Shown one piece after another: positions 37,612 through 56,376 of a DNA stretch of 64,000 nt. The notes beneath the pieces were generated by a model. That model did not search any database. It was not told the DNA's origin and worked only from the letters and a program-made list of their open reading frames with translations. This stretch comes from Gammaproteobacteria bacterium (lineage in GTDB: Bacteria; Pseudomonadota; Gammaproteobacteria; Arenicellales; Arenicellaceae). The DNA lies in NCBI GenBank assembly GCA_017854775.1, contig JAFMHC010000002.1, positions 17,099 to 81,098 on the forward strand. Direction: 5' to 3'. The position numbers were made by a program, and so were the translations under genes. Numbering within the stretch: the first letter of the stretch is position 1; each line of letters opens with the position of its first letter.

Positions 37612-38649
37612 ATGAACGAACCACAAGATAAGAACTCTACCATCAATGATGTTGCTCGCCTTTCAGGCGTTTCGAAACGCACGGTATCAAGGGTTATAAA
37701 TAAGTCGCCTAAAGTTGGTAAGTCCACTCGAGACCGTATCCAAAAGATCATAGACGACTTGGGTTATAGCCCAAACGCACAAGCTAGGGGTCTAGCATCG
37801 CGACGCTCCTATTTGCTAGGCATGATTTACGATAATCCCGACGCGCTCTATATTAATGATGTCCAAAGAGGCGTTTTAAGTATCTGCCGAGAATTCGGCT
37901 ACGAACTTGTTGTTCACCCCTGCGACATGACATCGGACAGCCTAATTAGTGACGCAGTTAACTTCGCTAACAGGTCAAAGCTAGACGGTGTTATTGTACT
38001 TCCTCCAGTTTCTGAGAATAACGACCTAGCTGGTGCGCTGGGAAAAGCAGGCGTTAATTACGTTCGCCTTGCTTCTATCGCACTTGACACAGCCAAACAC
38101 GTAGTTATTTCAAATGAACGATCTGCAGCGGCGGCGATGGCCGAATACCTGGTGACGCTTGGCCATCGACGCATTGGTTATATTGCCGGGCCTCAAGGAA
38201 TGCGCTCTACTCGAGAACGGCTTGAAGGATTCTGTGACGCTCTCGAGATTCATGGCTGCAAACCTGATTTAGACATGATTGCCTTAGGCGACTATTCATT
38301 CGAATCAGGCATCAATTGCACGCGAGAGCTTCTCGCTAATGAGAACCCTCCAACGGCTATTTTCGCTAGTAATGACGAGATGGCTGTTGGCGCAATCAAC
38401 GCGGCAAAAGATATGGGGCTCGATGTTCCTAATGACCTCTCAATCGCTGGCTTTGATGACAGCATACTGGCATCTAGGATAATGCCATCGCTTACCACGA
38501 TACGCCGCCCAGTACAAGAAATGGCTCGTTTTGCGACAAGCAAATTGATTTCATCAATCGACGGTCGCGAAGAAGAAGCGAAAACACCGATCATGCTGGT
38601 TCCATCGTTAATTGAACGCTCCTCGACTCGAGCAATTGATCTAACATAG
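37612..38649 (+). CDS. LacI-family transcriptional regulator of the pectin locus
   Basis: TINDVARLSGVSKRTVSRVINKSPKVGKSTRDRIQKIIDDLGYSPNAQARGLASRRS; periplasmic-binding-like sensor domain. Confidence 0.93.
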   Translation: MNEPQDKNSTINDVARLSGVSKRTVSRVINKSPKVGKSTRDRIQKIIDDLGYSPNAQARGLASRRSYLLGMIYDNPDALYINDVQRGVLSICREFGYELVVHPCDMTSDSLISDAVNFANRSKLDGVIVLPPVSENNDLAGALGKAGVNYVRLASIALDTAKHVVISNERSAAAAMAEYLVTLGHRRIGYIAGPQGMRSTRERLEGFCDALEIHGCKPDLDMIALGDYSFESGINCTRELLANENPPTAIFASNDEMAVGAINAAKDMGLDVPNDLSIAGFDDSILASRIMPSLTTIRRPVQEMARFATSKLISSIDGREEEAKTPIMLVPSLIERSSTRAIDLT

Positions 38650-38883
38650 CCTTAAAGCTGTCAATACTTAGGTATATAGTTGCCCGGCAAGGAGTCGCTG
38701 GCACATGACTTTGAGGGCTTTTAATGCACATTCGAGCCCGCACAATTTCAACCAAACGCCTCAACACCGGCACGCCCAAACCTCTTCAAGCACCCTATCG
38801 AAACAGTTTCGAATCAATAGGGTGATCACAAACGGTTAGAAAACAATCTAAAAGGGACTAATTAAAATGTTCTAAATAGATTA

Positions 38884-38899
38884 TTGCCACCGGTAGCAA
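38884..38899. promoter_or_regulatory. Predicted LacI-family operator upstream of GH28-uxaA-uxaC operon
   Basis: TTGCCACCGGTAGCAA. Confidence 0.75.
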
Positions 38900-38950
38900 A
38901 AAGTACTATTCTTGGGCTTGGAGCACACCTCTGACTCAATAATAAAAACA

Positions 38951-40405
38951 ATGAGCACACATTTCATGACCAACAAAACACGGCGAATCCTTCTCAAGAG
39001 CATAGCAACCACATCGCTAGCTCCCGGCGTTTTTCTCTCAGGATGCAGCACATTAGAACAAACCTTAGCCGCAGATAAATGGGTTATGGCATCTGACATT
39101 CGCGCTCGCATTAAGTTACCCAAGATTCCCAAGGCCGACTTTTTGATCACCGATTTCGGAGCGCTTGGCGATGGCCAAACGGATTGTAGTCAAGCAATTA
39201 AAGAATCTATCGAAGCTGCCTCGGCGGCCGGTGGTGGGCGTATCGTGGTACCAGCAGGCGTTTTTATGAGCGGGCCAATTCACTTAGATAATCGAATTGA
39301 GTTACATGTTCAAAAGGGCGCAACGCTTTCTTTCATAAACGATCCAGACAGATATTTACCGGCGGTATTTACCCGCTGGGAAGGGGTTGAGTTTATGGGG
39401 CTCTCTCCATTAATTTACGCATTCGGGAAATCAGACGTGGCTATTACAGGGCAAGGTACCTTATTTGGTGGTGCCGACGATGACCATTGGTGGCCTTGGA
39501 AAGGCGGCAAAAAGCCCGTATCACCGCAAAATCAAAAGAAGGCGCGAACAGAATTATTTGCAGAAGCCGAAGCGGGTGTGCCGCCAGAACAGAGGCTATA
39601 TGCCAAAGACGCCTACCTTCGCCCTCCCTTTATTCAACTTTACCAATGCAACAATATCTTGATTGAAGAAGTAACTATCACCGGCTCACCATTTTGGCTA
39701 ATAAATCCAGTATTGTCGAACAGCATTACCGTCCGTGGTGTTACCTGTCATAGCTATGGCCCCAACAATGATGGGTGTAATCCTGAATCCTGTAACGACG
39801 TGCTTATAGAGAACTGCCTATTCGATACCGGCGACGATTGTATTGCGATTAAATCTGGGCGTAATGCCGACGGTCGCCGTATCAATGTGCCATCGCAGAA
39901 TATTGTTGTATCTAATTGCAATATGAAAGCGGGTCACGGTGGCGTGGTAATGGGCAGTGAGTTGTCTGGCGGAATACGTAACATCTTCGTCGAAAACTGC
40001 CAGATGAGCAGCCCTGACTTATGGAGCAGTATCCGAATTAAAACAAATGCGATGCGCGGAGGCTCTGTCTCCAATGTAAACGTGAGAGACATTGATATTG
40101 GCACAGTGCGTGACATGATCCTTATCAATTTTTTCTATGAAGAGGGTGACAACGGCCCGTTTACACCTCAGGTGTCGGGCCTTCAGTTCGAAAACATGCA
40201 CTGCGCTGATGCCAAACGAATACTCAATGTAAGAGGTTTTAAGCACGCCCCGATTAGTGACATATTACTAAGCAACATCACCATTGATCACGCAGAAAAG
40301 GCATCAATAGTTGAGAATGTAGATCGCATCCGCTTTATCAAAGTGCGTGTTGATAACAGCGACGTAAATCAACTCAGCGATCTACGCCTAGAGGCTGGTG
40401 TATGA
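38951..40405 (+). CDS. Exported GH28 polygalacturonase-family hydrolase
   Basis: NNDGCNPESCNDVLIENCLFDTGDDCIAIKSGRN and GHGGVVMGSELSGGIRNIFVENC (GH28 NTD, DD, G/QGH motifs). Start 38951 (MSTHFMTNKTRR) chosen over 38912. Confidence 0.93.
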   Translation: MSTHFMTNKTRRILLKSIATTSLAPGVFLSGCSTLEQTLAADKWVMASDIRARIKLPKIPKADFLITDFGALGDGQTDCSQAIKESIEAASAAGGGRIVVPAGVFMSGPIHLDNRIELHVQKGATLSFINDPDRYLPAVFTRWEGVEFMGLSPLIYAFGKSDVAITGQGTLFGGADDDHWWPWKGGKKPVSPQNQKKARTELFAEAEAGVPPEQRLYAKDAYLRPPFIQLYQCNNILIEEVTITGSPFWLINPVLSNSITVRGVTCHSYGPNNDGCNPESCNDVLIENCLFDTGDDCIAIKSGRNADGRRINVPSQNIVVSNCNMKAGHGGVVMGSELSGGIRNIFVENCQMSSPDLWSSIRIKTNAMRGGSVSNVNVRDIDIGTVRDMILINFFYEEGDNGPFTPQVSGLQFENMHCADAKRILNVRGFKHAPISDILLSNITIDHAEKASIVENVDRIRFIKVRVDNSDVNQLSDLRLEAGV

Positions 40406-41874
40406 ACAGCCTGCAAATTCATGCTAGCGACAACGTCGCCGTAGCACTAAAAGATCTAAGCCTAGGCCAAAATGAGCTGGGCGCAACACTGTCTAGCGAC
40501 GTAGCCAAAGGCCACAAGTTTGCAGTAAACGAAATTCGTGAGGGTGAATCCGTAATCAAGTACGGCCACCCCATCGGGCAAGCGATAAGTGACATTAAAG
40601 TTGGCCAACATGTGCACAGCCATAACCTTCGAACCAGCCTTAAAAGCGGCGAGCACTATACCTACGAGCCCACCGAGCAGAGCCTGTCGAGCGCACTTGA
40701 ACATCATCAAACAGACACTTTTAGAGGCTACCTTCGAGCCAATGGACAAGCCGGAACCCGAAACGAAATATGGGTACTCAACACGGTTGGTTGTGTCAAT
40801 GCGACAGCCGCGAGGGTCGCCAATGCGAGCAAAGCGATTACTTCGGTAGACGGCATTCATTCCTTTGCACACCCATTTGGTTGTAGCCAACTCGGCAATG
40901 ATCTCGATCACACGCAAAAAGTATTGGCTGCATTGGCGTCACATCCTAACACCGGAGGTGTTGTCATCATTGGCCTAGGCTGTGAAAACAATCAGCTGGA
41001 CCAACTGCTCGAACGCGTTGACCCTACTCAGAAAGAACGAATTCGCTCCTTTAGCGCTCAAAAAGTGCAGGATGAAGAGATTAGTGGCCTTAATGGAGTA
41101 CAAGAATTAGCCGAGATAATGGCCGCAGATCAGCGCACTGAACTGCCCGCATCGCGGCTTTCGCTTGGCATGAAATGCGGCGGCTCCGATTCCTTTTCTG
41201 GGCTAACGGCCAACCCATTAGTCGGGCAGATGACGGATCGTATTTGCGCAGCTGGAGGGCGAGCAATACTGACCGAGGTACCAGAAATGTTTGGTGCTGA
41301 GCAGCTGCTGATGAATCGCGCCATCAACGCTGATGTCTATAACCAAACAGTAAAGTTGATTGACGATTTCAAAGGTTACTTCACCGCTAACAAACAGCCC
41401 GTGTCAGAAAACCCTTCGCCCGGTAATATCGCTGGAGGCATCACCACGTTAGAAGAAAAGTCACTGGGTGCGATTCAGAAAGGCGGCTCGGCTGCAGTAA
41501 GAAGTGTTATCGACTACGGCGAAAGAACAACCGAGCAAGGCCTAACGTTACTAGAAGGGCCGGGAAATGATGCTGTTTCGTCTACCGCATTAACCGCGGC
41601 AGGCGCCAACCTCATTCTATTTACGACAGGGCGAGGCACGCCGCTCGGCTTTCCAGTACCAACTCTAAAAATCGCCTCTAATAGCGCTTTAGCTGCCAGC
41701 AAACCACGCTGGATTGACTTTAATGCCGGTGCACTTCTCGAAGGCCGTTCGATGCCAGATGTGGCGAGTGACTTATGGAATAAAATTTTAGATATTGCCT
41801 CAGGCGAACCCGCCAAAAATGAGCAAAACGACTACAGAGAAATTGCCATCTGGAAAACCGGCGTCACTCTTTAG
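40402..41874 (+). CDS. uxaA: Altronate dehydratase
   Basis: SAF-like N-terminus, GYLRANGQAGTRNEIWVLNTVGCVN, MKCGGSDSFSGLTANP; ATGA overlap with the GH28 gene. Confidence 0.93.
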   Translation: MNSLQIHASDNVAVALKDLSLGQNELGATLSSDVAKGHKFAVNEIREGESVIKYGHPIGQAISDIKVGQHVHSHNLRTSLKSGEHYTYEPTEQSLSSALEHHQTDTFRGYLRANGQAGTRNEIWVLNTVGCVNATAARVANASKAITSVDGIHSFAHPFGCSQLGNDLDHTQKVLAALASHPNTGGVVIIGLGCENNQLDQLLERVDPTQKERIRSFSAQKVQDEEISGLNGVQELAEIMAADQRTELPASRLSLGMKCGGSDSFSGLTANPLVGQMTDRICAAGGRAILTEVPEMFGAEQLLMNRAINADVYNQTVKLIDDFKGYFTANKQPVSENPSPGNIAGGITTLEEKSLGAIQKGGSAAVRSVIDYGERTTEQGLTLLEGPGNDAVSSTALTAAGANLILFTTGRGTPLGFPVPTLKIASNSALAASKPRWIDFNAGALLEGRSMPDVASDLWNKILDIASGEPAKNEQNDYREIAIWKTGVTL

Positions 41875-41909
41875 TTATACAAACTGAACACAGACATAGA
41901 TAAATAATC

Positions 41910-43331
41910 ATGAATACAGCACTTAACTCACTACTTGATCCAGACCGCTTGTTTCCGACCGGCACAAAGACTCGTGACATCGCTCGAGGCTTGTACAGCG
42001 CAATAAAGGACCTGCCTATTATTAGCCCACATGGTCATACAGATCCCCGCTGGTTTGCTGAAAATGAGTGCTTCACCGACGCAACCAGCTTACTTCTGAT
42101 ACCTGACCACTATCTGTTTCGTATGCTTTACTCGCAAGGTATTTCGTTGGAGAGTTTAGGCATACCTCGTGTTGATGGCGGGCCGGTCGAAACTGACAAG
42201 CGTAAGATTTGGCGAACCTTTGCCGCCAATTATCACTTGTTCAGAGGCACCCCTTCATCAATATGGATGGACCACGTATTCCACTCTGTGTTTGGTCTTA
42301 CTGAGCTCTTTTCATCCGCCACAGCCGATCAGTTCTACGATCAAATTACCGCCGATTTGCAGTCCGACGCCTACCGGCCACGCGCTCTGATGGACCGTTT
42401 CAATATCGAGGTAATTGCCACTACAGAAGGAGCAATTGATGATCTTAAACACCATCGCTCGCTGGCCGGTACGCCATGGGCAAAACGGGTTATTACCACC
42501 TTCAGACCGGATGATGCGGTTGATCCTGAGCGTGAAGACTTTGTTGAAAATGTGCGGCGTTTAGGTGAACTCACTGGTGAAGACACCTCTCAGTGGAGCG
42601 GCTATTTGGACGCAATGCGTGCTCGACGCGAAACCTTCCGAGAATTTGGCGCAACCGCGACCGACCATGGCCACCCAAGTGCCGCGACTGCAGATTTATC
42701 ATTGCCAGACTGTCAGGCCTTGTTCGCAAGGTGCTTATCAGGAGACGTTAGCGCATCGGATGGCGAATTACTTCGTGCTCAAATGTTAACTGAAATGGCC
42801 GGCATGAGCCTGGAAGATGGCATGGTGATGCAAATACATGCGGGCGCCAAGCGTAACGTCAACAAACCGCTATTCGAGCGCTTTGGAAGAGATAAGGGCG
42901 CCGATATGCCTTCGTCAACCAACTACATTGATGGCTTGTCGGCACTGCTTAATAAATACGGCAATGAGCCTAGCCTCAAGATCATTTTATTCACCTTAGA
43001 CGAAACAACCTATGCTCGTGAATTGGCGCCGCTTGCAGGCCATTTTCCATGCCTAAAGCTTGGCCCTCCATGGTGGTTTAACGACAGCCCTGAAGGCATG
43101 CAGCGATTTCGCCAGCAAGCAACTGAAAGCGCTGGATTCTATAATACAGTGGGGTTTAATGACGACACCCGCGCATTTCTCTCTATTCCCGCACGCCATG
43201 ATGTCGCGCGGCGTATGGACTGCCGTTTTCTAGCCACCTTAGTGGCAGAGGGACGAATTCGCCTGAACGAAGCCGAGCAGTTAGCCGAAGACCTAACCTA
43301 CAACTTAGTTAAACAAGGCTACAATATATAA
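41910..43331 (+). CDS. uxaC: Glucuronate/galacturonate isomerase
   Basis: ISPHGHTDPRWFAEN, KLGPPWWFNDSPEGM, FNDDTRAFLSIPARHDVARR. Confidence 0.94.
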   Translation: MNTALNSLLDPDRLFPTGTKTRDIARGLYSAIKDLPIISPHGHTDPRWFAENECFTDATSLLLIPDHYLFRMLYSQGISLESLGIPRVDGGPVETDKRKIWRTFAANYHLFRGTPSSIWMDHVFHSVFGLTELFSSATADQFYDQITADLQSDAYRPRALMDRFNIEVIATTEGAIDDLKHHRSLAGTPWAKRVITTFRPDDAVDPEREDFVENVRRLGELTGEDTSQWSGYLDAMRARRETFREFGATATDHGHPSAATADLSLPDCQALFARCLSGDVSASDGELLRAQMLTEMAGMSLEDGMVMQIHAGAKRNVNKPLFERFGRDKGADMPSSTNYIDGLSALLNKYGNEPSLKIILFTLDETTYARELAPLAGHFPCLKLGPPWWFNDSPEGMQRFRQQATESAGFYNTVGFNDDTRAFLSIPARHDVARRMDCRFLATLVAEGRIRLNEAEQLAEDLTYNLVKQGYNI

Positions 43332-44836
43332 TGCGGCTATCAGAAAAGTCTCTAGCACAGCTTCCTGCGGAAATTTCTAAACCCTTATATGATCGTGAGG
43401 CATTGGGAATAGGCATCGTTCACTTAGGCATTGGCGCGTTTCATCGATGCCATATGGCGGTATACACTGATGATGTATTGGTGACGCATGGCGGTGACTG
43501 GAAAATACTCGGCGTGTCATTACGTAGCAACACAATTCAACAGCAGCTAAATCCACAGGATGGCCTATACACCGTAGCGGTTAGGGGTAATGCCGATAAT
43601 TGTGAACGGGTAATCGGCAGCATTTCTGGCGTGCTCTACGCAGCTGAGCAATCCACAGAAATTGTCGACGCTATGGCCGCCGCGACTACACATATTGTGT
43701 CGCTCACAGTTACTGAGAAAGGTTATTGCCATGACCCGTCAACCGGTGAGTTAAACAAGCAACACCCCGACATCGTCAATGACCTAAGATACTTTGCCGA
43801 ATCCGTTGGCCAACTAAAATCAGCGATTGGCTTTCTGGTCGCAGGGCTTTCTCAACGTAAAAAAAACGCTGGTGGCCCGCTAACTATTCTGTGTTGCGAC
43901 AACCTTCCCTCAAATGGAGCCACTGTCGCTAAATTGGTGCTGCGTTTTGCGTCTATAATCGAGCCAGAACTTACTGATTGGATACACCACAATGTGCGCT
44001 TCCCAAGCACCATGGTCGATCGAATAGTACCGGCAATGGAACAAGATAGCGTTAATGATTTCTTTCAACGTACGGGGCTAGTCGATGAAGCGATATTACA
44101 AACAGAGCCCTTTACTCAGTGGGTAATTGAGGACGACTTTGCAGGCCCTAGACCCGCATGGGAAGATGTAGGTGTCACCTTAGTAAGCGATGTAGAGCCT
44201 TATGAAGAAGCTAAACTCAGAATGCTCAACGGCAGCCATTCAGCACTCGCCTACTTAGGTTATCTTGCTGGCTTCAAATATGTGCATGAGGCAATGACCC
44301 AGCCCGACTTACGTTACTTTATTGATACCTTTATGACCAACGAAGCAGCGCCATCGCTTGGTACCCAAAAAGGAATGGACCTCAATGACTATCGGCTACA
44401 GCTACAAGCTCGCTACGACAACAAAGCACTAGCACACAAAACTTACCAGATCGCCATGGATGGTAGCCAAAAAATACCTCAACGCTTACTCGGAACTTTG
44501 CGCCACCAGTTAAACACCAACGGCGTAATTAGCGCTTGCTGCCTCGCTGTTGCGGCTTGGATGCGGTATGTGATGGCGGAGGACGAAAACGGACTAAGTT
44601 ACCTAGTTCAAGACCCTATGGCGGTCATATTAAAGCAAGTCGCCAACAATAAAAAAGGGGACCCTCGCAAGCAAGTAATCGGTTTTTTAAGCATACAAGA
44701 TATTTTTTCAAGCGACTTAATAGCCGACCCGCGAGTTTGCGACGAGTTAACTTTTTGGTTGTCTGAACTGTGTGATAACGGAGTTCTTAGCACGCTTAAT
44801 ACATTCAAACAAAAAGTTAAGTTGACCAGCCCTTGA
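43331..44836 (+). CDS. Mannitol dehydrogenase-family oxidoreductase (fructuronate/tagaturonate reductase candidate)
   Basis: GIGIVHLGIGAFHRCHMAVYTDDVL; RMLNGSHSALAYLGYLAG. Starts at the uxaC stop. Confidence 0.85.
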   Translation: MRLSEKSLAQLPAEISKPLYDREALGIGIVHLGIGAFHRCHMAVYTDDVLVTHGGDWKILGVSLRSNTIQQQLNPQDGLYTVAVRGNADNCERVIGSISGVLYAAEQSTEIVDAMAAATTHIVSLTVTEKGYCHDPSTGELNKQHPDIVNDLRYFAESVGQLKSAIGFLVAGLSQRKKNAGGPLTILCCDNLPSNGATVAKLVLRFASIIEPELTDWIHHNVRFPSTMVDRIVPAMEQDSVNDFFQRTGLVDEAILQTEPFTQWVIEDDFAGPRPAWEDVGVTLVSDVEPYEEAKLRMLNGSHSALAYLGYLAGFKYVHEAMTQPDLRYFIDTFMTNEAAPSLGTQKGMDLNDYRLQLQARYDNKALAHKTYQIAMDGSQKIPQRLLGTLRHQLNTNGVISACCLAVAAWMRYVMAEDENGLSYLVQDPMAVILKQVANNKKGDPRKQVIGFLSIQDIFSSDLIADPRVCDELTFWLSELCDNGVLSTLNTFKQKVKLTSP

Positions 44837-45571: not shown

Positions 45572-48500
45572 TTAGCTGTCAGCAAGCATCGGAGTAAAAC
45601 TTTCGGCTTCTTGTATTAGCAGCGGCGGCTGACTTACAACTCTGGGTTCTGTAATCAGTTTTTTAAGACCGGTCTCGACCGCTAAATATTGATCAATGGC
45701 AGGCTGTGTATGCTCGATATAAGCTGTCATCTCAGCAATAGTATCTGGGAATTCCTCAAGTAATGATGAATAACTTGATTGCTTATAAACAATGGCATGG
45801 GTTGTGGTTGGCCCAGTTCCCTCGCTTGCAGTTTCTCTAAGATGGTTACAGCCACTTAACAATGGATATTGCTTTCCCCAACAATGCCCGCCTAAATATA
45901 AAATGTCCCAGCTCTCAGTTTTCGCCTCCGCCAGACTGTTGGCAAGGCTGGTAAGTGTGGCCGCATCAAATATCACATCGTCTTCCAATACCAACACATT
46001 CTGGTGCCGATTTATCGATGCCGTTTGGATTATTGTTCGGTGAGACAAGGCGCACCCTATGTGGTGATTTTCGGGTGTTTCAATTGCCGAGAAACGCTGC
46101 ACTCGATGGCCAATACCAAGTAGATCGAATTGTGCTTTTACCGCGCTCCACCGAGCTTGATCGCGATCTAGGTTGATACAGTAGATAGCATCAAAATAGA
46201 AGAATGGATTATCAATTTCGGCTTCAATGTTAGCTACGATTTTGACGGTCTCAGCCTCGCCAATATGTGAATTAAAGTGTTCAATCATCGGGCCATTATC
46301 AATGCCCAATTCTTGATGCGCAATCATGTAATTACGCATACGGTCTGCCCAATTGAGCGCATAACGAGTGCCCATCGGTCGGTTAAAGCGATGCAGCCAG
46401 CGTAAAAACGGCAGACAGAGAGTTCGGCCACCGGCGCGGCGAACTTTCTCGTGTACATAGCCCTCTTCGCCTCCAAACCCGCTAAAACGTGGGTTTACTT
46501 GCGGCCAACTATCTTTGCGAAAAGCAAACAAACCGAGCCCTTGCATTGGGATATCAAAACCAGGGCCATCGAGCTCGTAGGCTCTCGGGTCTGTAGCCCA
46601 ACTCCCATACATACCAGCACCCCAACTAGGCGCAAAATGCGACGACAGCGAATGCATATCATCATTGACCAATGGCCCTTGAAGCAAATCGTGTGTATCG
46701 GGATTAGCGTCGATATAGTCCAGCAATTGTTTGATTGCGCCGGGCACAATCATCACATGTGAATCCATGCACAGAATGTAAGGCGAGTTAGTTCGATTAA
46801 TCAATGAAAATCGAGACCAAGTACCTTGAAAATTATCGCCTTGAATATAGCGGTAGTTGGGCATCGAATCGCCAAGCAACTTAAGCGCATCGGCGCAAAT
46901 GCCGGTGGGATTATTGTCGAGCACTACAAACTCTATTTGATCTAATATTTCTGGGTGGTACAAGCGGATTGCCTGCACTGAAAAATACACCCCATCGTAG
47001 TCGTCATAGGTTGCCATACCGATACATAACTTGTACTTTTTTGATGATACCGGCGGCGGCAGATACTCAATTGCGGGTGCATAAGGTGTGGTTTCTTTGA
47101 AACTAATCGCGCCATTGAGCGCGAGGTGACGCAAAGTGGTTTTAACGTCTTGGCTTAGGCTTTCAATGTCAGCTGGAAAGCGCTCGCCAAGAGACTCAAT
47201 AATAGAATCAACATTCTTAATTCCATCGCATTGCTCAATAATTAAATTAGTTGTTTCATTAGTAGTAAAACAATGCCCCGATTGCAGGTTTTCAAAGCGG
47301 CTCGAATCGTGTTCTCGAGATAGTTCCCAGCCGGTCACTATTTGTGGAATTAAAATCGAAGAGGATGATTTTTTCAAGTTTTTGGAAAGCTCGTTTTTAG
47401 TTGCCTGGGTAGCTGAAACGCTGATTGCTGAAGCAGCCGATCTCTGTGGTAAAAACTGTCTAGCAACAACATTATACGTTGTGTCTAGCGACATAATATT
47501 TTCTTCGGTGATCAGTCCTTGATGAAAGTTAGAAAAGTCTACTCTGGATTGGTCCCACCAAAGATGGTTCCACATATGCATGCTATAGACTTCTTGAAAA
47601 TCATCATCGAGCCCTTCAAATAGCGTGCCGATACCTTGATTCGTCCACATGTGTTTGAAAAAGAAACGCTGCGGAACTACATGCACTTTATCCGGAAATT
47701 CTAACGCCAGTGACGCCGCTTGCTGGCAAGAATGGGAACTCCAAGTGCCGTCAAATGATTTATAACTGGCCTCTAGCCATCGCTGCGCGAACTCTGAATT
47801 GGGTTCAGACATCAACAGCGCGTTGCACAACGAAGGCTTTTGTTGATTACTAACAGAGTCGATAACATCCTGCTCACGACCTATTACAAACGCGTGCTGA
47901 TAAAGCTCTTCGGGTATAGGGTTTACAAATAATGTATCCATGTCGGCGTACACACCACCGTACTCGATCAATTTTTTCAAGCGGATAAAATCAGCTTGAT
48001 GCGCATAATCAAGTTTAGACGCCTTAATAAACTGACCTTCCTGATGATCTTGATATGCGGCGTGCTGATGCACAAACGATTCCAGCTCAACTTCGATTAA
48101 AGTAAGGTGAGGTTTTATCAACTCCCAATATTCACCATACGGTTGATAGTGGTAATAAAAATGTAATGCGTTCGGTTTATTAACCTCTAGACAGGATTTT
48201 AAACAAAGGTAATAGGCAAGATGAAACGGTTCTGATTGCTCTTTAAGCCCGAATATAAAATGAAAAATTTTCGGAATATTAGTTTCCCGAGTTGTTTTTT
48301 CCTTAGCCGATTTCGCCCTAATTGATTTCGCCATAGTTGCTTTATAGAGTTGTGCACCAACTTGTGCTGAGTTATATTTTTTATGTAAATCTAATGCGAG
48401 TTTTTCAGCTTTTCGCCGTGCGCTATCAGGCGCGTTGAACAGCGTTTTTAGGTGCTCCGAAATAGACAGTTCGCTAGCTTGTGCCCACTGTTGGTCGCCA

Positions 48501-49516
48501 CTATAAGACGAGTTACCTCTTCCATCTATTACGTCTGTCAATTCATATGACGACAGATAACTTGCCTCATCTGTTAGAAAATCCAGATGCCCTCCCCAGC
48601 CAGTCGCAATCACAGGATTACCCATGCCGGCCGCTTCAAACATACCTAAGCCCCACCCTTCGCTGTGGCTAGTAGAAACAAAGCAATCTCCGAGTTGGTG
48701 CAATGCCGTGATGTCGTCATTAGTGACTTTATAATTAATCAACGCGATATGCGCGGGTGACTCATAGCCAGCAGCAATCTCAGCAAGCAATTGCTGGGTA
48801 TCGTGTTCACTTGCATCGGCTTCTGAGCGAGGGCCTCGAGCGGATGTTTTTAATACCAAAGAAACCGCATCAGCCGCGCTAAAACTGCTCAGATATGCGT
48901 TAACCAAATTCCACAGCGCCTTGCGAGCAGTCCAATCATTAATACAATAGAAAACGTAGTTTTCGCTCGGGACCCCGGTCAAACTGCACATATCGCTCAC
49001 TGAGGCATCGGCGATAGGGGGCATTTTGTTAAGAATATGAGGCACCACATCTATCGGAATTTTGACGCCCGAACGCTCGAATATTGGTCGATTAAAAGCA
49101 CACGGCACTAGCACCCGATCGAGCTGATTTATAAGATCAGGAAAATGCTTAGGCAGACAACTGGTTTCCCAAACGCTGTAGCCGATATGATATTGATTGC
49201 GCTCTTTTAGCAAAGGCCAATACTCAGGCACTGTATGCATTATTATGCAATGGTAATCGCTAATCGGCGTGAGACAATCTATTAACCTTTCAATTTGACT
49301 GTCTTCAGATAGACACTGTTTGAGTAATTCGCGAACTGCGTGTTTAGCTGATGGTGATCGATACCAAGGTTGGTAACCTGTTTCGGTCAAGATAAGCGGC
49401 ACCCAATAAATTGAACATTCAAGATCTAGCAGCGCATTCAAGTAACTGATTGCCGCCAAGCCATAGCCCGATGACTCAAGCAAGGAGTAGTATTTTATGC
49501 CATTGGTATTCACCAA
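45572..49516 (-). CDS. Multidomain glycosyltransferase: GT4-like + GT32-like + PqqD-like + GT2-like + GT25-like
   Basis: GT4: SHSEGWGLGMFEAAGMGNPVIATGWGGHLDFL; GT32: IPKIFHFIFG...YGGVYADMDTLFVNP; PqqD-like: SGHCFTTNETTNLIIEQCDGIKNVDSIIESLGERFPADIESLSQDVKTTLRHLALNGAI; GT2: KLCIGMATYDDYDGVYFSVQAIR...; GT25: AIYCINLDRDQARW...GCALSHRTIIQTA...NVLVLEDDVIF. Confidence 0.88.
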   Translation of the reverse strand: MVNTNGIKYYSLLESSGYGLAAISYLNALLDLECSIYWVPLILTETGYQPWYRSPSAKHAVRELLKQCLSEDSQIERLIDCLTPISDYHCIIMHTVPEYWPLLKERNQYHIGYSVWETSCLPKHFPDLINQLDRVLVPCAFNRPIFERSGVKIPIDVVPHILNKMPPIADASVSDMCSLTGVPSENYVFYCINDWTARKALWNLVNAYLSSFSAADAVSLVLKTSARGPRSEADASEHDTQQLLAEIAAGYESPAHIALINYKVTNDDITALHQLGDCFVSTSHSEGWGLGMFEAAGMGNPVIATGWGGHLDFLTDEASYLSSYELTDVIDGRGNSSYSGDQQWAQASELSISEHLKTLFNAPDSARRKAEKLALDLHKKYNSAQVGAQLYKATMAKSIRAKSAKEKTTRETNIPKIFHFIFGLKEQSEPFHLAYYLCLKSCLEVNKPNALHFYYHYQPYGEYWELIKPHLTLIEVELESFVHQHAAYQDHQEGQFIKASKLDYAHQADFIRLKKLIEYGGVYADMDTLFVNPIPEELYQHAFVIGREQDVIDSVSNQQKPSLCNALLMSEPNSEFAQRWLEASYKSFDGTWSSHSCQQAASLALEFPDKVHVVPQRFFFKHMWTNQGIGTLFEGLDDDFQEVYSMHMWNHLWWDQSRVDFSNFHQGLITEENIMSLDTTYNVVARQFLPQRSAASAISVSATQATKNELSKNLKKSSSSILIPQIVTGWELSREHDSSRFENLQSGHCFTTNETTNLIIEQCDGIKNVDSIIESLGERFPADIESLSQDVKTTLRHLALNGAISFKETTPYAPAIEYLPPPVSSKKYKLCIGMATYDDYDGVYFSVQAIRLYHPEILDQIEFVVLDNNPTGICADALKLLGDSMPNYRYIQGDNFQGTWSRFSLINRTNSPYILCMDSHVMIVPGAIKQLLDYIDANPDTHDLLQGPLVNDDMHSLSSHFAPSWGAGMYGSWATDPRAYELDGPGFDIPMQGLGLFAFRKDSWPQVNPRFSGFGGEEGYVHEKVRRAGGRTLCLPFLRWLHRFNRPMGTRYALNWADRMRNYMIAHQELGIDNGPMIEHFNSHIGEAETVKIVANIEAEIDNPFFYFDAIYCINLDRDQARWSAVKAQFDLLGIGHRVQRFSAIETPENHHIGCALSHRTIIQTASINRHQNVLVLEDDVIFDAATLTSLANSLAEAKTESWDILYLGGHCWGKQYPLLSGCNHLRETASEGTGPTTTHAIVYKQSSYSSLLEEFPDTIAEMTAYIEHTQPAIDQYLAVETGLKKLITEPRVVSQPPLLIQEAESFTPMLADS
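47090..47355 (-). other. PqqD-like domain embedded in the multidomain glycosyltransferase
   Basis: IPQIVTGWELSREHDSSRFENLQSGHCFTTNETTNLIIEQCDGIKNVDSIIESLGERFPADIESLSQDVKTTLRHLALNGAISFKE matches the PqqD pattern (..LNxTGxxIxxxCDGxxTVxEIxxxLxxxF....xxxDVxxxLxxLxxxGxI). Confidence 0.75.
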
Positions 49517-51465
49517 CCCATTTTACCGAAATATTTAATTCGAGCTTTAGCGCTAAAAAAAATAACAAGGTTGCATGAATGGTCTGGCTCTTCATGTTCT
49601 TGCATGGTCCGCCCCAGTTGATGTAATGCGGCTTTATCCATCAAAACCAACTCGGGGTTATGGCCCCTTTCGTGAACCCAATATATTTCAGCCTCGGTCC
49701 AATCAAAGAAATCGATGAACATCTCAAGCCCGTCAGGCTCAGTCGCCGATAGTAGTCCAGGACAAAATTCAAACACACACCCTAGGTGATCCCTATTTCG
49801 TTCAATTACATGGGTCATTCCCTTCAGCACTTTAAGCTCATGGCCTTGGGTATCGCTTTTAATAAAATCAATCGGTTCGCTGCAGTTTGCCAGATATTGA
49901 TCAAGCACAATAATGCTAACCTTTTGCTTTTCTCGATCGCCGTTATAATCGCCGCTATAGTTGAGACGATGGTCGCCTTTATTGCAACTCGATAGATGCA
50001 AATCAATCACTCCCGAATTGTCTGATAGACCATGATTTTCAATTATTACATTGTCTAATTGATTAGCTAATATATTGGCCTCGAGCAGGGAGTAATTCTC
50101 CGCTTCAGGTTCGAAAGCATAGACTTTTCCCTGTTCACCAACCAATTGCGCGAAAAGCACCGTGAAATAGCCGATGTTAGCCCCGATATCGATAACGTTA
50201 TCGCCAACCGAGATCAGCTTGCTAACTAAAGCAGTTTCAACCGGCTCCCAAATGTGGTCGGTCTTAAGAGTGTGACTGATTACTTGGTCGCCAGCTTCAT
50301 AAACCAGCAAACTAAATGGCCTAAGTCCGGCATTGGCAATATAGACCAGTTGTTTATGCTCGCTAGGCGCTAAAACGCGATTACTGTTAGTTGTGGCCTT
50401 TTTTACGTAGAGCCCTTCATCAGAATTGGCGCTTTGCATCGCGAGTAAATTCGTAGTTGGACAAATCATGTGTTTAGCAAAGCCGTCGGTGTTGAATGCT
50501 ACGACTTGTGAATCGGCTCTACATTGTTCGGCAAGAGCTTCAATATCTCTGCCACCATTGAATAAATCCATTCCAGGAGAATCATGCATTGGATAAAAAT
50601 CAAAACCGTCAATTGAATTTGGTCTTGGATTAATTAGTTCGGCCGCTGAACCGGTAGTCCACGAGTTGGCCCAGTGATGTACTGCAAAACAGCCCTGACT
50701 TACTAGTTTTTTCCTGAGAGTGTCACTTGCATTGGAGCCTTCAGCGAGATTGGAGCCTTCAGCGAGATTGGAGCCTTCAGCGAGATTGGAGCCTTCAGCG
50801 AGATTGGAGCCTTCAGCGAGATTGGAGCCTTCAGCGAGATAAGAGCCTTCAGCGAGATAAGAGTTTTCGGCGAGCAGCGATAACTCCGGCGCATTATTTA
50901 CGAACGGGCAAAAATAGCTTGAAGGGTAAACATTTACTCCTTGCCTTTTCACTTGCTCATAGACTTTTTGTAACATTACAGGGCCAGTGGAATTCAACAC
51001 ATCGTCGTGTAAGCCCGCGCAGGTCTCGTCTGTAATGAGAAAATCAATGACTGCTTTTAAAAACGCAGAACCGGGTTGCGATGCGAATAGCGCATTACAC
51101 AGTAATTGATCGAGTGATTGGTCGCGCGCATGTTCTCTTGGTTCTAGACCGATGACCAAGTTATGGCTGTCAAACAGACCATCTAATGGCTGCAGGCATT
51201 CAAAATCAAGATCGACATAAAGCCCCCCGTAATGATAAATCACCAGATAGCGAATCGCATCAGCGCGCTGTATATCACGCGAATAAGCAAAGTAAGTGCG
51301 GCTAAAGTGCGGATAAAATTGCTCGACAAATTCAGCACCATCAGCGTTGCTCCACAACTTGTATTGCCAACCAGGGTGATACCGCCTCCAAGACTGGGCA
51401 AACGCCGTCCATTCACTTGGAACCTGATCGGTTTTCCAAGTTTGGTGGATAATTTTAGGGATCAT
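49510..51465 (-). CDS. GT32 (OCH1-like) glycosyltransferase fused to FkbM-type methyltransferase
   Basis: MIPKIIHQTWKTDQVPSEW...RADAIRYLVIYHYGGLYVDLDFECLQP (GT32); DNVIDIGANIGYFTVLFAQLVGEQGKVYAFEPEAENYSLL...DFIKSDTQGHELKVLKGM (FkbM). Confidence 0.9.
   Translation of the reverse strand: MIPKIIHQTWKTDQVPSEWTAFAQSWRRYHPGWQYKLWSNADGAEFVEQFYPHFSRTYFAYSRDIQRADAIRYLVIYHYGGLYVDLDFECLQPLDGLFDSHNLVIGLEPREHARDQSLDQLLCNALFASQPGSAFLKAVIDFLITDETCAGLHDDVLNSTGPVMLQKVYEQVKRQGVNVYPSSYFCPFVNNAPELSLLAENSYLAEGSYLAEGSNLAEGSNLAEGSNLAEGSNLAEGSNLAEGSNASDTLRKKLVSQGCFAVHHWANSWTTGSAAELINPRPNSIDGFDFYPMHDSPGMDLFNGGRDIEALAEQCRADSQVVAFNTDGFAKHMICPTTNLLAMQSANSDEGLYVKKATTNSNRVLAPSEHKQLVYIANAGLRPFSLLVYEAGDQVISHTLKTDHIWEPVETALVSKLISVGDNVIDIGANIGYFTVLFAQLVGEQGKVYAFEPEAENYSLLEANILANQLDNVIIENHGLSDNSGVIDLHLSSCNKGDHRLNYSGDYNGDREKQKVSIIVLDQYLANCSEPIDFIKSDTQGHELKVLKGMTHVIERNRDHLGCVFEFCPGLLSATEPDGLEMFIDFFDWTEAEIYWVHERGHNPELVLMDKAALHQLGRTMQEHEEPDHSCNLVIFFSAKARIKYFGKMGW
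50731..50874. repeat. In-frame 18-bp tandem repeat (8 units) in the GT32-FkbM gene
   Basis: ATTGGAGCCTTCAGCGAG x6 exact from 50731 to 50838, then two diverged units; encodes (LAEGSN)n. Confidence 0.97.
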
Positions 51466-51724: not shown

Positions 51725-52501
51725 ATGTCCAACGAGAAAAATGATTCATTAGGCGGCAAAGATGTATCTTTGTCTAGTTCAACCACCGAACAAGAGCAAA
51801 CTGTTGGGGTAGAGCAAAAAAACGCTAGGCGTACAGTATTACGCAACACCCTGATTGGTGGTGGTGCCGTTATTTCAACCAGCTTTGTCCCAGACCAATG
51901 GAAAAAGCCATTGCTTGATTCGGTAATCTTGCCGGGCCATGCGCAAACTAGCGCTCCGATCATAGTTATGGGCGGCGGCAGTGGCATCTCAGTCACTAAA
52001 GCTGACAATAACGGATTCGAAGTTGACGATATTCTGGATATTTTCATCGGCCAAGCTTATGCCACAAGTGCTGCTTCATTGGAAGGCGGTTGCTTACTAC
52101 TCACCCTAGAGGGCTCGGTTGCAACTGTTTCACTGACCTTAAACGATAATGAAGTTGATACCAAAACCGGCACTATTGACGGAACAGCGGTTAGTGTTTC
52201 AGGCCTACATTCTGGATACACCGTCACGGCAAACTTAAATAGCGCTTCTGTGCCAACCAGCGCGACTGGCTCTGTTAGTGGCTTTGGCGAGACTGGAACA
52301 TTTGGTGTCTCAACCGCTGACCCAGTCTGTGCGCCGGTTGCTACGACTACGTCGGCACCAACTACGACATCCGCACCCACAACAACACCTTCACCGACTA
52401 CCACTCCGGCAGCCACAACAACGCCCACACCGACTACAACATCAATGCCGAACTCGAATATCACGTTTAATTTTAGTTTGTCGAAATCTATCTGGTCATA
52501 A
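51725..52501 (+). CDS. Exported protein with Tat-like leader and C-terminal Thr/Pro/Ser mucin-like tail
   Basis: NARRTVLRNTLIGGGAVISTSFVPDQWKKPLLDSVILPGHAQTS leader; tail TTTSAPTTTSAPTTTPSPTTTPAATTTPTPTTTSMP. ORF also open from GTG 51713. Confidence 0.75.
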   Translation: MSNEKNDSLGGKDVSLSSSTTEQEQTVGVEQKNARRTVLRNTLIGGGAVISTSFVPDQWKKPLLDSVILPGHAQTSAPIIVMGGGSGISVTKADNNGFEVDDILDIFIGQAYATSAASLEGGCLLLTLEGSVATVSLTLNDNEVDTKTGTIDGTAVSVSGLHSGYTVTANLNSASVPTSATGSVSGFGETGTFGVSTADPVCAPVATTTSAPTTTSAPTTTPSPTTTPAATTTPTPTTTSMPNSNITFNFSLSKSIWS

Positions 52502-53403: not shown

Positions 53404-54897
53404 ATGTATCGCTTCTCTTACCTAATAACCTATCGTAAATCTGATCAAAGTCGGGAACGCAACCTGCACTATCTTTTGCAACAGCTCTGTCTTGACCCAA
53501 CACTGGAAATCATTATTGTTGAACAAGATGCTAAAAGCCAAGTAGGGAATTTACCGAAAACCAATATTAACTATGTATTTATTGAGAATACGGGGCGATT
53601 TAATAAATCATGGGGGCTGAATATCGCCGCTAACCACGCGAGCTGCGAGCGCCTTTTATTCGCTGATTCAGATATGCTAATTGATGCAGCCACATTAGAC
53701 CGAATTAGCGAAAAAATGGACGATGGTGCCGATGCCATCAACCCGTATGACGTTTTAGTTGACCTCAGCCAGCAAGAGACCCGGCAGTTACTAAGCCAAG
53801 CCCACGAGCTACATATTGATCGGTCTCCAGAACAGCTAAACCGAAAATCAATTGGTCAACACCTGCCGTTCTGCGGAGGCGCGTTCGCTATTACACGAAA
53901 ACTTTTCAACGCTACAGGCGGCATGGATGAACGTTTTGAAGGTTGGGGCGCTGAAGACGATGCAATGTCCAAACGGGTGGCTTTTTTTGCCGCCCAAGTA
54001 GCAACACTAAACAGCGTTGCCTACCATTTGTGGCATCAACCTAGCGAGCTCAACGGCATTGATCCGCAAAACTATATCCGCAACCTGTCGCTCTTAAGCA
54101 TGTACTACGAACGGCCTAAATCGTTCTACCATTCGACGGCGCAACGGGATCTCACGAATAACGCCCGCACCTCAAAATATAGCGCGGTTAATAAACCGCT
54201 GCAGGCAAACGACCACACCCCACTGATATCATGCCTATGCGTGACTCGTGGCAGAGTGTCACTATTAAAGCGTGCGATTGATTGTTTTCAAGCACAAACC
54301 TATGCGCGTAAAGAACTGATTGTGGTTAGTGAATCAGATGACCTAGAAACAAACGAGCTTTTGCGGCAGCTGAATATTAAAGAGATCCGCCACCATGTCG
54401 CCCCCATTGACCCAAAACAAAGCTTGGGTGATCTGCGAAATTTATCCATAAAAATAGCCAAGGGGCAGTTCATTTGCCAGTGGGACGACGATGATTGGTA
54501 TCACCCTCAAAGACTTTCGAAACAATTAAACTCAGCCTTGCAACAACAGAAACCGGCTTCGATTTTACCACGCTGGTTAATCCATCATCGAGAAAGTAAT
54601 AAAATTTACTGCTCTAACATTCGTTTATGGGAAGGTAGCCTATTATGCCGTAAAGACATTTTACCAGCGGGTGACGCCTACGATAATAGACGTAAAGGTG
54701 AAGACTCAATGTTAATCGAAAAACTTTTTGTCGAAGACCAGCTGGCAATAGAAGATTTTCCCGAGCTCTATATTTATTACTTAAACGGCGAAAACACATG
54801 GGATACAACGCATGCCGAAAAAATAATCGAGGCAAGTGTCGAGCTAAGCCCGCAAGATGCAAAGATTGTTAGAGACAAGATATCCGCACATCCTTAG
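53404..54897 (+). CDS. Tandem glycosyltransferase (two GT2/GT-A domains)
   Basis: Domain 1: YLITYRKSDQSRERNLHYLL...LLFADSDMLI...FCGGAFAITRKLFNATGGMDERFEGWGAEDDAM; domain 2: ISCLCVTRGRVSLLKRAIDCFQAQTYARKELIVV...GQFICQWDDDDWYHPQRL. Confidence 0.9.
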   Translation: MYRFSYLITYRKSDQSRERNLHYLLQQLCLDPTLEIIIVEQDAKSQVGNLPKTNINYVFIENTGRFNKSWGLNIAANHASCERLLFADSDMLIDAATLDRISEKMDDGADAINPYDVLVDLSQQETRQLLSQAHELHIDRSPEQLNRKSIGQHLPFCGGAFAITRKLFNATGGMDERFEGWGAEDDAMSKRVAFFAAQVATLNSVAYHLWHQPSELNGIDPQNYIRNLSLLSMYYERPKSFYHSTAQRDLTNNARTSKYSAVNKPLQANDHTPLISCLCVTRGRVSLLKRAIDCFQAQTYARKELIVVSESDDLETNELLRQLNIKEIRHHVAPIDPKQSLGDLRNLSIKIAKGQFICQWDDDDWYHPQRLSKQLNSALQQQKPASILPRWLIHHRESNKIYCSNIRLWEGSLLCRKDILPAGDAYDNRRKGEDSMLIEKLFVEDQLAIEDFPELYIYYLNGENTWDTTHAEKIIEASVELSPQDAKIVRDKISAHP

Positions 54898-55107: not shown

Positions 55108-56376
55108 ATGAAAAACACAGAACTAGAGTTACTTAAGCCGATTGATAACGCAATTGTTGCTGCGTCCAAAGACATAAAAGTGCTAACGCGATTAAGTTGG
55201 CCAGCCAAGGTTAAGCGTACATTCCTCGACGACTGGCAACGTGGCAACCCGCGGTTACCACAAGTTGAATATAACATTAGTGATGACCTGAAGGCCTCGG
55301 CAGAATCCTTGCGCAAAGCCAAGCAAGAGCTGTCTGTGTTCGACCATCCACTAGCGAGCTATTTACATAAAACAGCCGATTCCTACCAAACTTTATGCCA
55401 TTTACTGGAATCTGCTGGCAGCCAAGATATGCTTGAACCCAGCCGTGAATTATATGGTGCCCCAGGTGATTTACTGGCTGATGGTCGTTTCAATAATCTA
55501 CAAGCCGCGCATCACTTTCTAGAATCCAGTGATCAGTTCAGCCGTGCCACACACCTGCATGAATCGGCCTACTGCTTACCAGCCGAGACCATTAAACAAG
55601 ACCTCGAAAGCAGACTGACTGAGGTTTTCCCCAAGGGTCTTTTAAGCGTCGTTACTGACCCTAACCTAGTATCAAAGGCCGCCGCAGGAGCCACTCGAAT
55701 TCGTCTGCGTGATGCAACCTGCTTTACTGAGTATGATTTAGAGCAATTGCTGCAGCACGAGATATTCATCCACAGCCTAACCGCATTAAACGGCCAAGCC
55801 CAACAAAATGCGAGTTGCTTTGGCTTGGGTGCGCCCCGCACTACCGGTGCCCAAGAGGGCCTTGCAACCTTTTCAGAACTGGTAACTGGGTCGATCGACA
55901 TAGATCGACTAGAACGAATCGCGCTCCGAACTATAGCAATTGACCAAGCGCTAAATGGCGCAGACTTTATCCAGGTATTTAAGTTCTTTCTAGAGCGCGG
56001 GCAGCCAGAAGATGAATGCTTCAACTCGACCATGCGAATTTTTAGAGGTGCCCCGGTTACCGGAGGCGCGGCGTTTACTAAAGACGGCGTTTACCTACAT
56101 GGTTTAATGCAGGTTCACACCTTTTTTAGCTGGGCAATGAGTCATCAAAAATTAGATCTATGTCGTTACTTTCTAGCAGGCCGAATGACCATCTCAGACG
56201 CAATAGAATTAGAGCCACTGTTCAATGATGGCACTCTGAAACAGCCGCGATATCTACCGCCATGGATGGCAAAAACCAGCGGTCTCGCGGGCTACTTAGC
56301 CTTCTCGGTATTTGCTGATAAATTATCGATTCAAGGCATCGCGGCTGATCATAACTTTCAGCGCTTTGAAGTTTAA
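55108..56376 (+). CDS. DUF1704 family (QEGLA motif) putative metallopeptidase
   Basis: LLQHEIFIHSLTALNG zinc-type motif and TTGAQEGLATFSELVTG, the hallmark of the flavohemoglobin expression-modulating QEGLA family. Confidence 0.88.
   Translation: MKNTELELLKPIDNAIVAASKDIKVLTRLSWPAKVKRTFLDDWQRGNPRLPQVEYNISDDLKASAESLRKAKQELSVFDHPLASYLHKTADSYQTLCHLLESAGSQDMLEPSRELYGAPGDLLADGRFNNLQAAHHFLESSDQFSRATHLHESAYCLPAETIKQDLESRLTEVFPKGLLSVVTDPNLVSKAAAGATRIRLRDATCFTEYDLEQLLQHEIFIHSLTALNGQAQQNASCFGLGAPRTTGAQEGLATFSELVTGSIDIDRLERIALRTIAIDQALNGADFIQVFKFFLERGQPEDECFNSTMRIFRGAPVTGGAAFTKDGVYLHGLMQVHTFFSWAMSHQKLDLCRYFLAGRMTISDAIELEPLFNDGTLKQPRYLPPWMAKTSGLAGYLAFSVFADKLSIQGIAADHNFQRFEV

Follow-up and report, generated by a model that had tools for sequence, protein, structure and literature searches.

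A conserved leader common to many unrelated proteins and linked to PqqD-carrying glycosyltransferases: a predicted RRE-guided modification system for exported proteins

The discrete RREs of lasso-peptide systems recognise their leaders through a short motif, [Y/W]xxPx[LVIFA] (PMC13381572). In the LPP systems of the Bacillota, an RRE is found together with an HprK-like kinase, an NTP transferase and a signal peptidase, and acts on precursors of 35–200 amino acids (PMC13381572). Two residues of the LPP RRE, N33 and D70, touch the leader: the N33A substitution nearly abolished binding and D70A lowered it. Fusions of RREs to glycosyltransferases have been catalogued earlier by RRE-Finder, without a substrate in the portions of those reports considered here (PMC7470986, PMC12710340).

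Here we describe a candidate substrate for a fusion of this kind, a mucin-like, putatively exported protein of 258 amino acids encoded in a 64,000-nucleotide stretch of DNA (the window) from a marine gammaproteobacterium of the family Arenicellaceae (Table 1). The protein has no Pfam or NCBIfam family match, and its ATG start fits the N-terminal alignment with a syntenic ortholog. The initial annotation described an RR-containing leader, a C-terminal Thr/Pro tail and glycosyltransferase genes on both sides, and proposed that a PqqD domain may read the leader. The leader is present at the N-terminus of an open reading frame and domain matches bear out the glycosyltransferases and place a PqqD domain in the 1314 amino acid neighbour. 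The tail needs amending: the Thr/Pro repeats are real, lying at approximately residues 208–241 over a tandem array of 18/36-bp units (52356–52443), but they are not terminal, being followed by 16 residues conserved in the ortholog (NSNITFNFSLSKSIWS in the window protein, NANVAFNFSLSKSYWT in the ortholog). Single-sequence AlphaFold2 models of the PqqD segment and the substrate (mean pLDDT 44.7 and 35.1, respectively) were both too poor for use.

Table 1. Features of the candidate substrate and its neighbours, in window coordinates
Feature	Position	Strand	Basis
Leader protein, 258 aa, candidate substrate	51725..52501	+	Open ORF; syntenic ortholog in L139
Leader (R35–S76), comprising twin Arg (R35-R36), hydrophobic stretch, W59-K-K-P-L-L-D-S-V-I-L-P70-G-H-A-Q-T-S76	51827..51952	+	Nine proteins of the genome matched by the leader profile
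W59-S76: W-x-x-P-x-L core, predicted to be recognised by PqqD/RRE, followed by G-H-A / Q-T-S, signal-peptidase-I-like site	51899..51952	+	Conservation in 80 leaders; [Y/W]xxPx[LVIFA] motif of PMC13381572
Second conserved element ILDIFIGQAYA, residues 103-113, AxA-like	52031..52063	+	A[HY]A enrichment in leader-protein bodies
Thr/Pro stretch, predicted O-glycan acceptor	52346..52450	+	Thr/Pro composition, repeats, link to GT2 subfamily, ortholog alignment
16-residue conserved C-terminus after Thr/Pro stretch	52451..52498	+	Alignment with G005 ortholog
Multidomain glycosyltransferase with PqqD, 1314 aa (GT4-like, Gly_transf_sug, PqqD, GT2, GT25)	45572..49516	-	Domain search
PqqD/RRE domain, residues 744-803, N33- and D70-equivalents kept	47108..47287	-	PF05402 E 8e-9; alignment
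Domain of the GT2 subfamily (residues 829-1118) that goes with leader genes and Thr-rich tails	46163..47032	-	Subfamily profile and locus comparison
Gly_transf_sug and FkbM methyltransferase protein, 651 aa	49510..51465	-	Domain search; ortholog in L139
Glycosyltransferase-like protein, 218 aa	52576..53232	-	Weak Anp1 / GT21 match; ortholog in L139
497-aa protein with a pair of GT2-type domains, the first with a galactosyltransferase-like C-terminal region	53404..54897	+	Domain search; ortholog in L139

The leader is not confined to this one protein. A protein search followed by a leader profile identified nine leader proteins in the source genome (E 7e-24 to 4e-10), the bodies of which are mostly unrelated to each other. 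Among 80 leaders taken from the source genome and related ones, the core residues are close to invariant (W 80/80, P 79/80, L 72/80, P 80/80, H 80/80, A 79/80), the H-A pair is usually followed by Q-T-S/T, and RR or RK lies upstream of the tryptophan in nearly all cases, most often by 19–24 residues. The consensus is WxKPxVxSVxLPAHAQTS. Leaders are found in 39 of 109 Arenicellales genomes, at up to 20 copies per genome, and in 20 of 74 genomes of one family of another phylum, the Desulfobulbaceae. The leader is a genome-wide tag common to many otherwise unrelated proteins, an observation that goes beyond the initial annotation. Among the matches listed in a literature text search for LPAHA there was only unrelated work, and a search for 'Arenicella' and 'glycosylation' returned no co-mention. 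One Desulfobulbaceae MAG encodes three leader proteins in tandem, two of them with Thr-rich stretches (L203:2036-3300).

A second element, approximating to [IL]LDFF[VI]xxA[HY]A, occurs across many loci, mostly 24–80 residues downstream of the leader. A[HY]A is present in 34 of 116 leader-protein bodies (4.6 in shuffles), usually preceded by a hydrophobic stretch, and the element resembles a further AxA processing site.

Might the leader serve export alone, as a Tat or Sec signal whose end happens to be unusually well conserved, with its link to PqqD reflecting lineage history or shared genomic islands? All three of its elements, the twin arginines, the hydrophobic stretch and the AxA-like site, are typical of signal peptides. 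The near-invariance of W, P, P and H is unlike ordinary signal peptides, however, and we reject a generic Tat signal, since in a phylum-wide sample of 249 genomes the source genome was the sole match and the 248 others gave none (E 1e-6). The Tat signal model TIGR01409 does not match the window protein, whilst one paralog reaches 15.6 bits against a cut-off of 16.7. A further argument against this improbable explanation is that, in two phyla, every leader-bearing genome also has PqqD and the two are tightly co-localised.

In the Arenicellales, PqqD is present in 39/39 leader genomes but only 12/70 leaderless ones, a count that ignores phylogeny; by genus, the figures are 13/13 with the leader and 5/18 without (Fisher 4e-5). 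Within the Desulfobulbaceae family, the corresponding numbers are 20/20 and 32/54 (Fisher 3e-4, a statistic that again ignores phylogeny). The genes also lie close together, by counts made likewise without regard to phylogeny: among the PqqD matches listed in relatives, 17 of 150 have a leader gene no more than 10 kb away (3.3 expected), rising to 11 of 46 where PqqD is in an ORF of more than 200 amino acids (1.3 expected), and in Desulfobulbaceae leader genomes 17 of 49 matches are within 7 kb (0.4 expected). Most leader genes in fragmented genomes have no PqqD gene nearby and action in trans must therefore be assumed there. The initial annotation had staked its proposal on a genomic association between the motif and PqqD-glycosyltransferase genes, and such an association is found, both in these genome counts and in the PqqD-glycosyltransferase fusions that adjoin leader genes.

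Further support for leader recognition comes from the residues involved on each side. The leader core W-x-x-P-x-[LVI] matches the published RRE motif (PMC13381572). The PqqD protein encoded at C101 in the source genome has as its best match PDB 9x8z, a PqqD family protein that we infer to be LppB because it carries Asn and Asp at the expected offset, the companion entry 9x90 having the Gly and Gln reported for PbaB1. Aligned on 9x8z, the PqqD domain fused to the window glycosyltransferase has Asn and Asp at the positions equivalent to N33 and D70, and amongst the fused PqqD domains the Asn is found in 33 of 42 and the Asp in 29 of 42. Together with co-occurrence and co-localisation, this makes it very likely that PqqD/RRE domains read the leader, as the initial annotation had suggested.

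What, then, might the PqqD domain bring to the leader protein? In the 1314 amino acid protein it sits between the Gly_transf_sug and GT2 domains. Orthologs of this protein, the leader protein, the 497 and 218 amino acid proteins and the Gly_transf_sug–FkbM protein are all found together in G005. (The Gly_transf_sug–FkbM protein contains in-frame LAEGSN/LAEGSY repeats, encoded at 50740–50890 on the minus strand; its G005 ortholog is 604 amino acids long.) At L132, four PqqD-carrying proteins surround a single leader gene, the partner domains being Gly_transf_sug, a PIG-L-like domain, GT2 with GT25 (in this third protein PqqD was detected by the local profile only) and a GT2-type domain. PqqD–glycan-enzyme fusions similarly adjoin leader genes in L104, L129, L130, L139, L140 and L153. 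That several glycosyltransferases, an FkbM methyltransferase and, at L132, a PIG-L-like protein should be gathered around single leader proteins would also suit a role for the leader protein as carrier or primer of a surface polysaccharide, with the PqqD-glycosyltransferase as the polymerising enzyme. We consider this very improbable: in the set of neighbours examined we recognised no gene for polysaccharide export, nor any polymerase gene, and the leader-protein bodies are highly diverse.

Elsewhere in the window, the cluster is adjoined by a gene (55108–56376, plus strand) for a protein resembling MATCAP / QEGLA-motif putative tyrosine carboxypeptidases (PF08014 E 7e-108; TIGR02421 282.9 bits against a cut-off of 338.7). 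A likely uronate/pectin utilisation operon lies at 37612–44836 (plus strand), with ORFs, judged by eye, for a LacI-type regulator and for polygalacturonase-, altronate dehydratase-, uronate isomerase- and mannitol-dehydrogenase-like proteins.

The GT2 domain that follows PqqD in the 1314 amino acid protein belongs to a tight subfamily of 18 copies, found in 15 of the 109 Arenicellales genomes, all 15 of them leader-bearing, and 13 of the 18 copies are within 5 kb of a leader gene. Thr-rich stretches, which are present in 13 of 104 leader proteins, occur exclusively (13/13) in genomes that have this subfamily. Leader proteins at loci beside the GT2 are Thr-rich in 8 of 14 cases compared with 5 of 90 elsewhere (Fisher 1.1e-5, ignoring phylogeny), a conservative count because one of the five, L142, adjoins a GT2 in the overlapping locus L222. 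No PqqD was detected on three GT2 copies adjoining tailed leader proteins (L023, L122, L123). In Desulfobulbaceae loci L202, L257 and L262, this GT2 forms a fusion with an HprK-like kinase and is found beside poly-Thr or Thr/Pro leader proteins, and the cassette loci of this family without the GT2 (L259, L260, L263 and L269, for example) have no Thr stretches. The proposal in the initial annotation that the Thr/Pro stretch receives glycans gains indirect support from this tracking of Thr-rich tails with one GT2 subfamily, and we regard the stretch as quite likely to be a glycan acceptor. Many leader proteins have no Thr-rich stretch, however, and the residues modified in these must therefore differ.

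A further leader ORF in the source genome (G000:C216) was rejected as another tailed substrate: its leader is degenerate (W-T-N-A) and two in-frame stops precede the tail. At this locus (L026:5162-11929), the ORF with its Pro/Thr/Ser tail lies beside a gene for a 1200 amino acid protein with hydroxyproline-arabinosyltransferase-like, PF11397 GlcNAc-transferase and 2OG-Fe(II) oxygenase domains, and a second PF11397 protein is encoded nearby. Possibly, a tail is hydroxylated on proline here and the resulting Hyp glycosylated.

A second context for PqqD, also beyond the initial annotation, is a cassette of a nucleotidyltransferase (PF14907), a discrete PqqD protein and an HprK-like kinase. Such cassettes travel with the leader too: one adjoins a leader gene at G000:C101 in the source genome, and others are found in several relatives and in most PqqD-carrying Desulfobulbaceae loci. 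The cut-offs of the HPr-rel-A system models (TIGR04352, TIGR04353) were not reached (HprK_rel_A 112.8 against 200 bits at C101; TIGR04353 22.3 against 35 bits at L202). The leader genes and cassette of L202 have a signal peptidase I gene close by; signal peptidase I in Desulfobulbaceae cassettes would also be in keeping with the export-only explanation considered above. The third PqqD of the source genome (G000:C125; L022:7448-9842) is accompanied by nucleotidyltransferase-like and kinase-like ORFs, with no leader gene nearby.

These cassettes raise an alternative for the modification itself, namely that the leader is indeed a PqqD tag but that the main modification is LPP-like, a phosphorylation or sugar-phosphate transfer by the cassette enzymes, with the neighbouring glycosyltransferases building another glycan and the Thr/Pro stretch serving as linker or phosphorylation site. 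The cassettes at C101 and in the Desulfobulbaceae loci are in its favour, as is the precedent of the lasso enzymes PsmK and PsmN, which place a phosphate and a hexose on a C-terminal Ser (PMC9266682). The PqqD of the window is fused to glycosyltransferases, however, with no kinase or nucleotidyltransferase adjoining, and the Thr-rich tails follow the GT2 rather than the cassette, and we consider this alternative unlikely.

On balance, we think it probable that an RRE-guided system modifies exported proteins, that the leader protein of the window is amongst its substrates and that the Thr/Pro stretch of this protein is O-glycosylated via the PqqD-glycosyltransferase. In the mechanism that we infer, the leader would contain both a twin-Arg export signal and a W-x-x-P-x-[LVI] element gripped in the cytoplasm by the PqqD/RRE domain. 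As this domain is built into a multidomain glycosyltransferase, leader binding would bring the Thr/Pro stretch to the glycosyltransferase active sites for O-glycosylation, and the neighbouring glycosyltransferase and FkbM proteins may add more sugars and methyl groups. Export would follow, after which signal peptidase I would cut the leader at LP[A/G]HA/QTS. The tag probably selects which exported proteins receive the sugar modification, because it travels with PqqD joined or linked to glycosyltransferases in two phyla. More tentatively, at a little below an even chance, a single leader tag may, prior to export, route a genome-wide set of unrelated exported proteins, numbering as many as 20 in one genome, through glycosyltransferases and kinases that carry PqqD, which would amount to a Gram-negative, leader-guided, mucin-type O-glycosylation of whole proteins. 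A ~40-residue leader peptide and a ~95-residue PqqD domain would allow a direct test of the prediction. If it holds, leader-guided modification reaches beyond small natural products and takes in sets of exported proteins, many hypothetical exported proteins with a leader ending LPAHAQTS acquire a role, and the leader becomes a portable tag for steering glycosylation in the bacterial cytoplasm.

How does this system compare with those already described? Like LPP (PMC13381572), it has an RRE with an HprK-like kinase and NTP transferase, a signal peptidase I, an aromatic-x-x-P leader core and precursors with a conserved N-terminus and a variable C-terminus. The arrangement of discrete RRE, kinase and NTP transferase beside a precursor is present at G000:C101 and in the Desulfobulbaceae but absent from the window cluster, where the RRE is instead fused to glycosyltransferases. 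Also unlike LPP, the leader has W, ends LPAHAQTS with a twin Arg upstream and does not match the LPP motif YxxPxVLxHQxIxFETxxS, and the substrates reach ~500 amino acids, are scattered over the genome and occur in other phyla. With the paeninodin-type lasso peptides (PsmK / PsmN; PMC9266682, PMC13381572) it shares a WxxP leader read there by a discrete RRE, and an HprK-like kinase and nucleotidyltransferase, which in those systems attach phosphate and hexose, but here the candidate substrates are whole exported proteins, and no lasso cyclase or B2 leader peptidase match was found among the six window proteins scanned. The GT2 subfamily resembles the GT27 mucin-type GalNAc-transferases in its invariant D-x-H and its GGEE...H-x-F end, and matches polypeptide GalNAc-transferase 9 weakly (E 0.08), and the candidate substrate has an acceptor-like Thr/Pro tail; the subfamily differs in being bacterial and, on our reading, leader-guided, and profile searches return generic GT2 rather than GT27, so that the motifs are suggestive and GT27 membership is not claimed. 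As in the RRE-Finder fusions (PMC7470986, PMC12710340), PqqD/RRE is joined to a PF00535 glycosyltransferase; those fusions are named by architecture only in the portions considered, whereas the present analysis ties a leader and a family of candidate substrates to such fusions, in two phyla. Because the defining features of LPP and lasso systems tested in the window cluster were not found there, we file the system with neither; judged from sequence, it appears to work like RRE-guided, RiPP-like modification, its substrates having a conserved leader and a variable remainder and its RRE/PqqD being encoded with the substrate.
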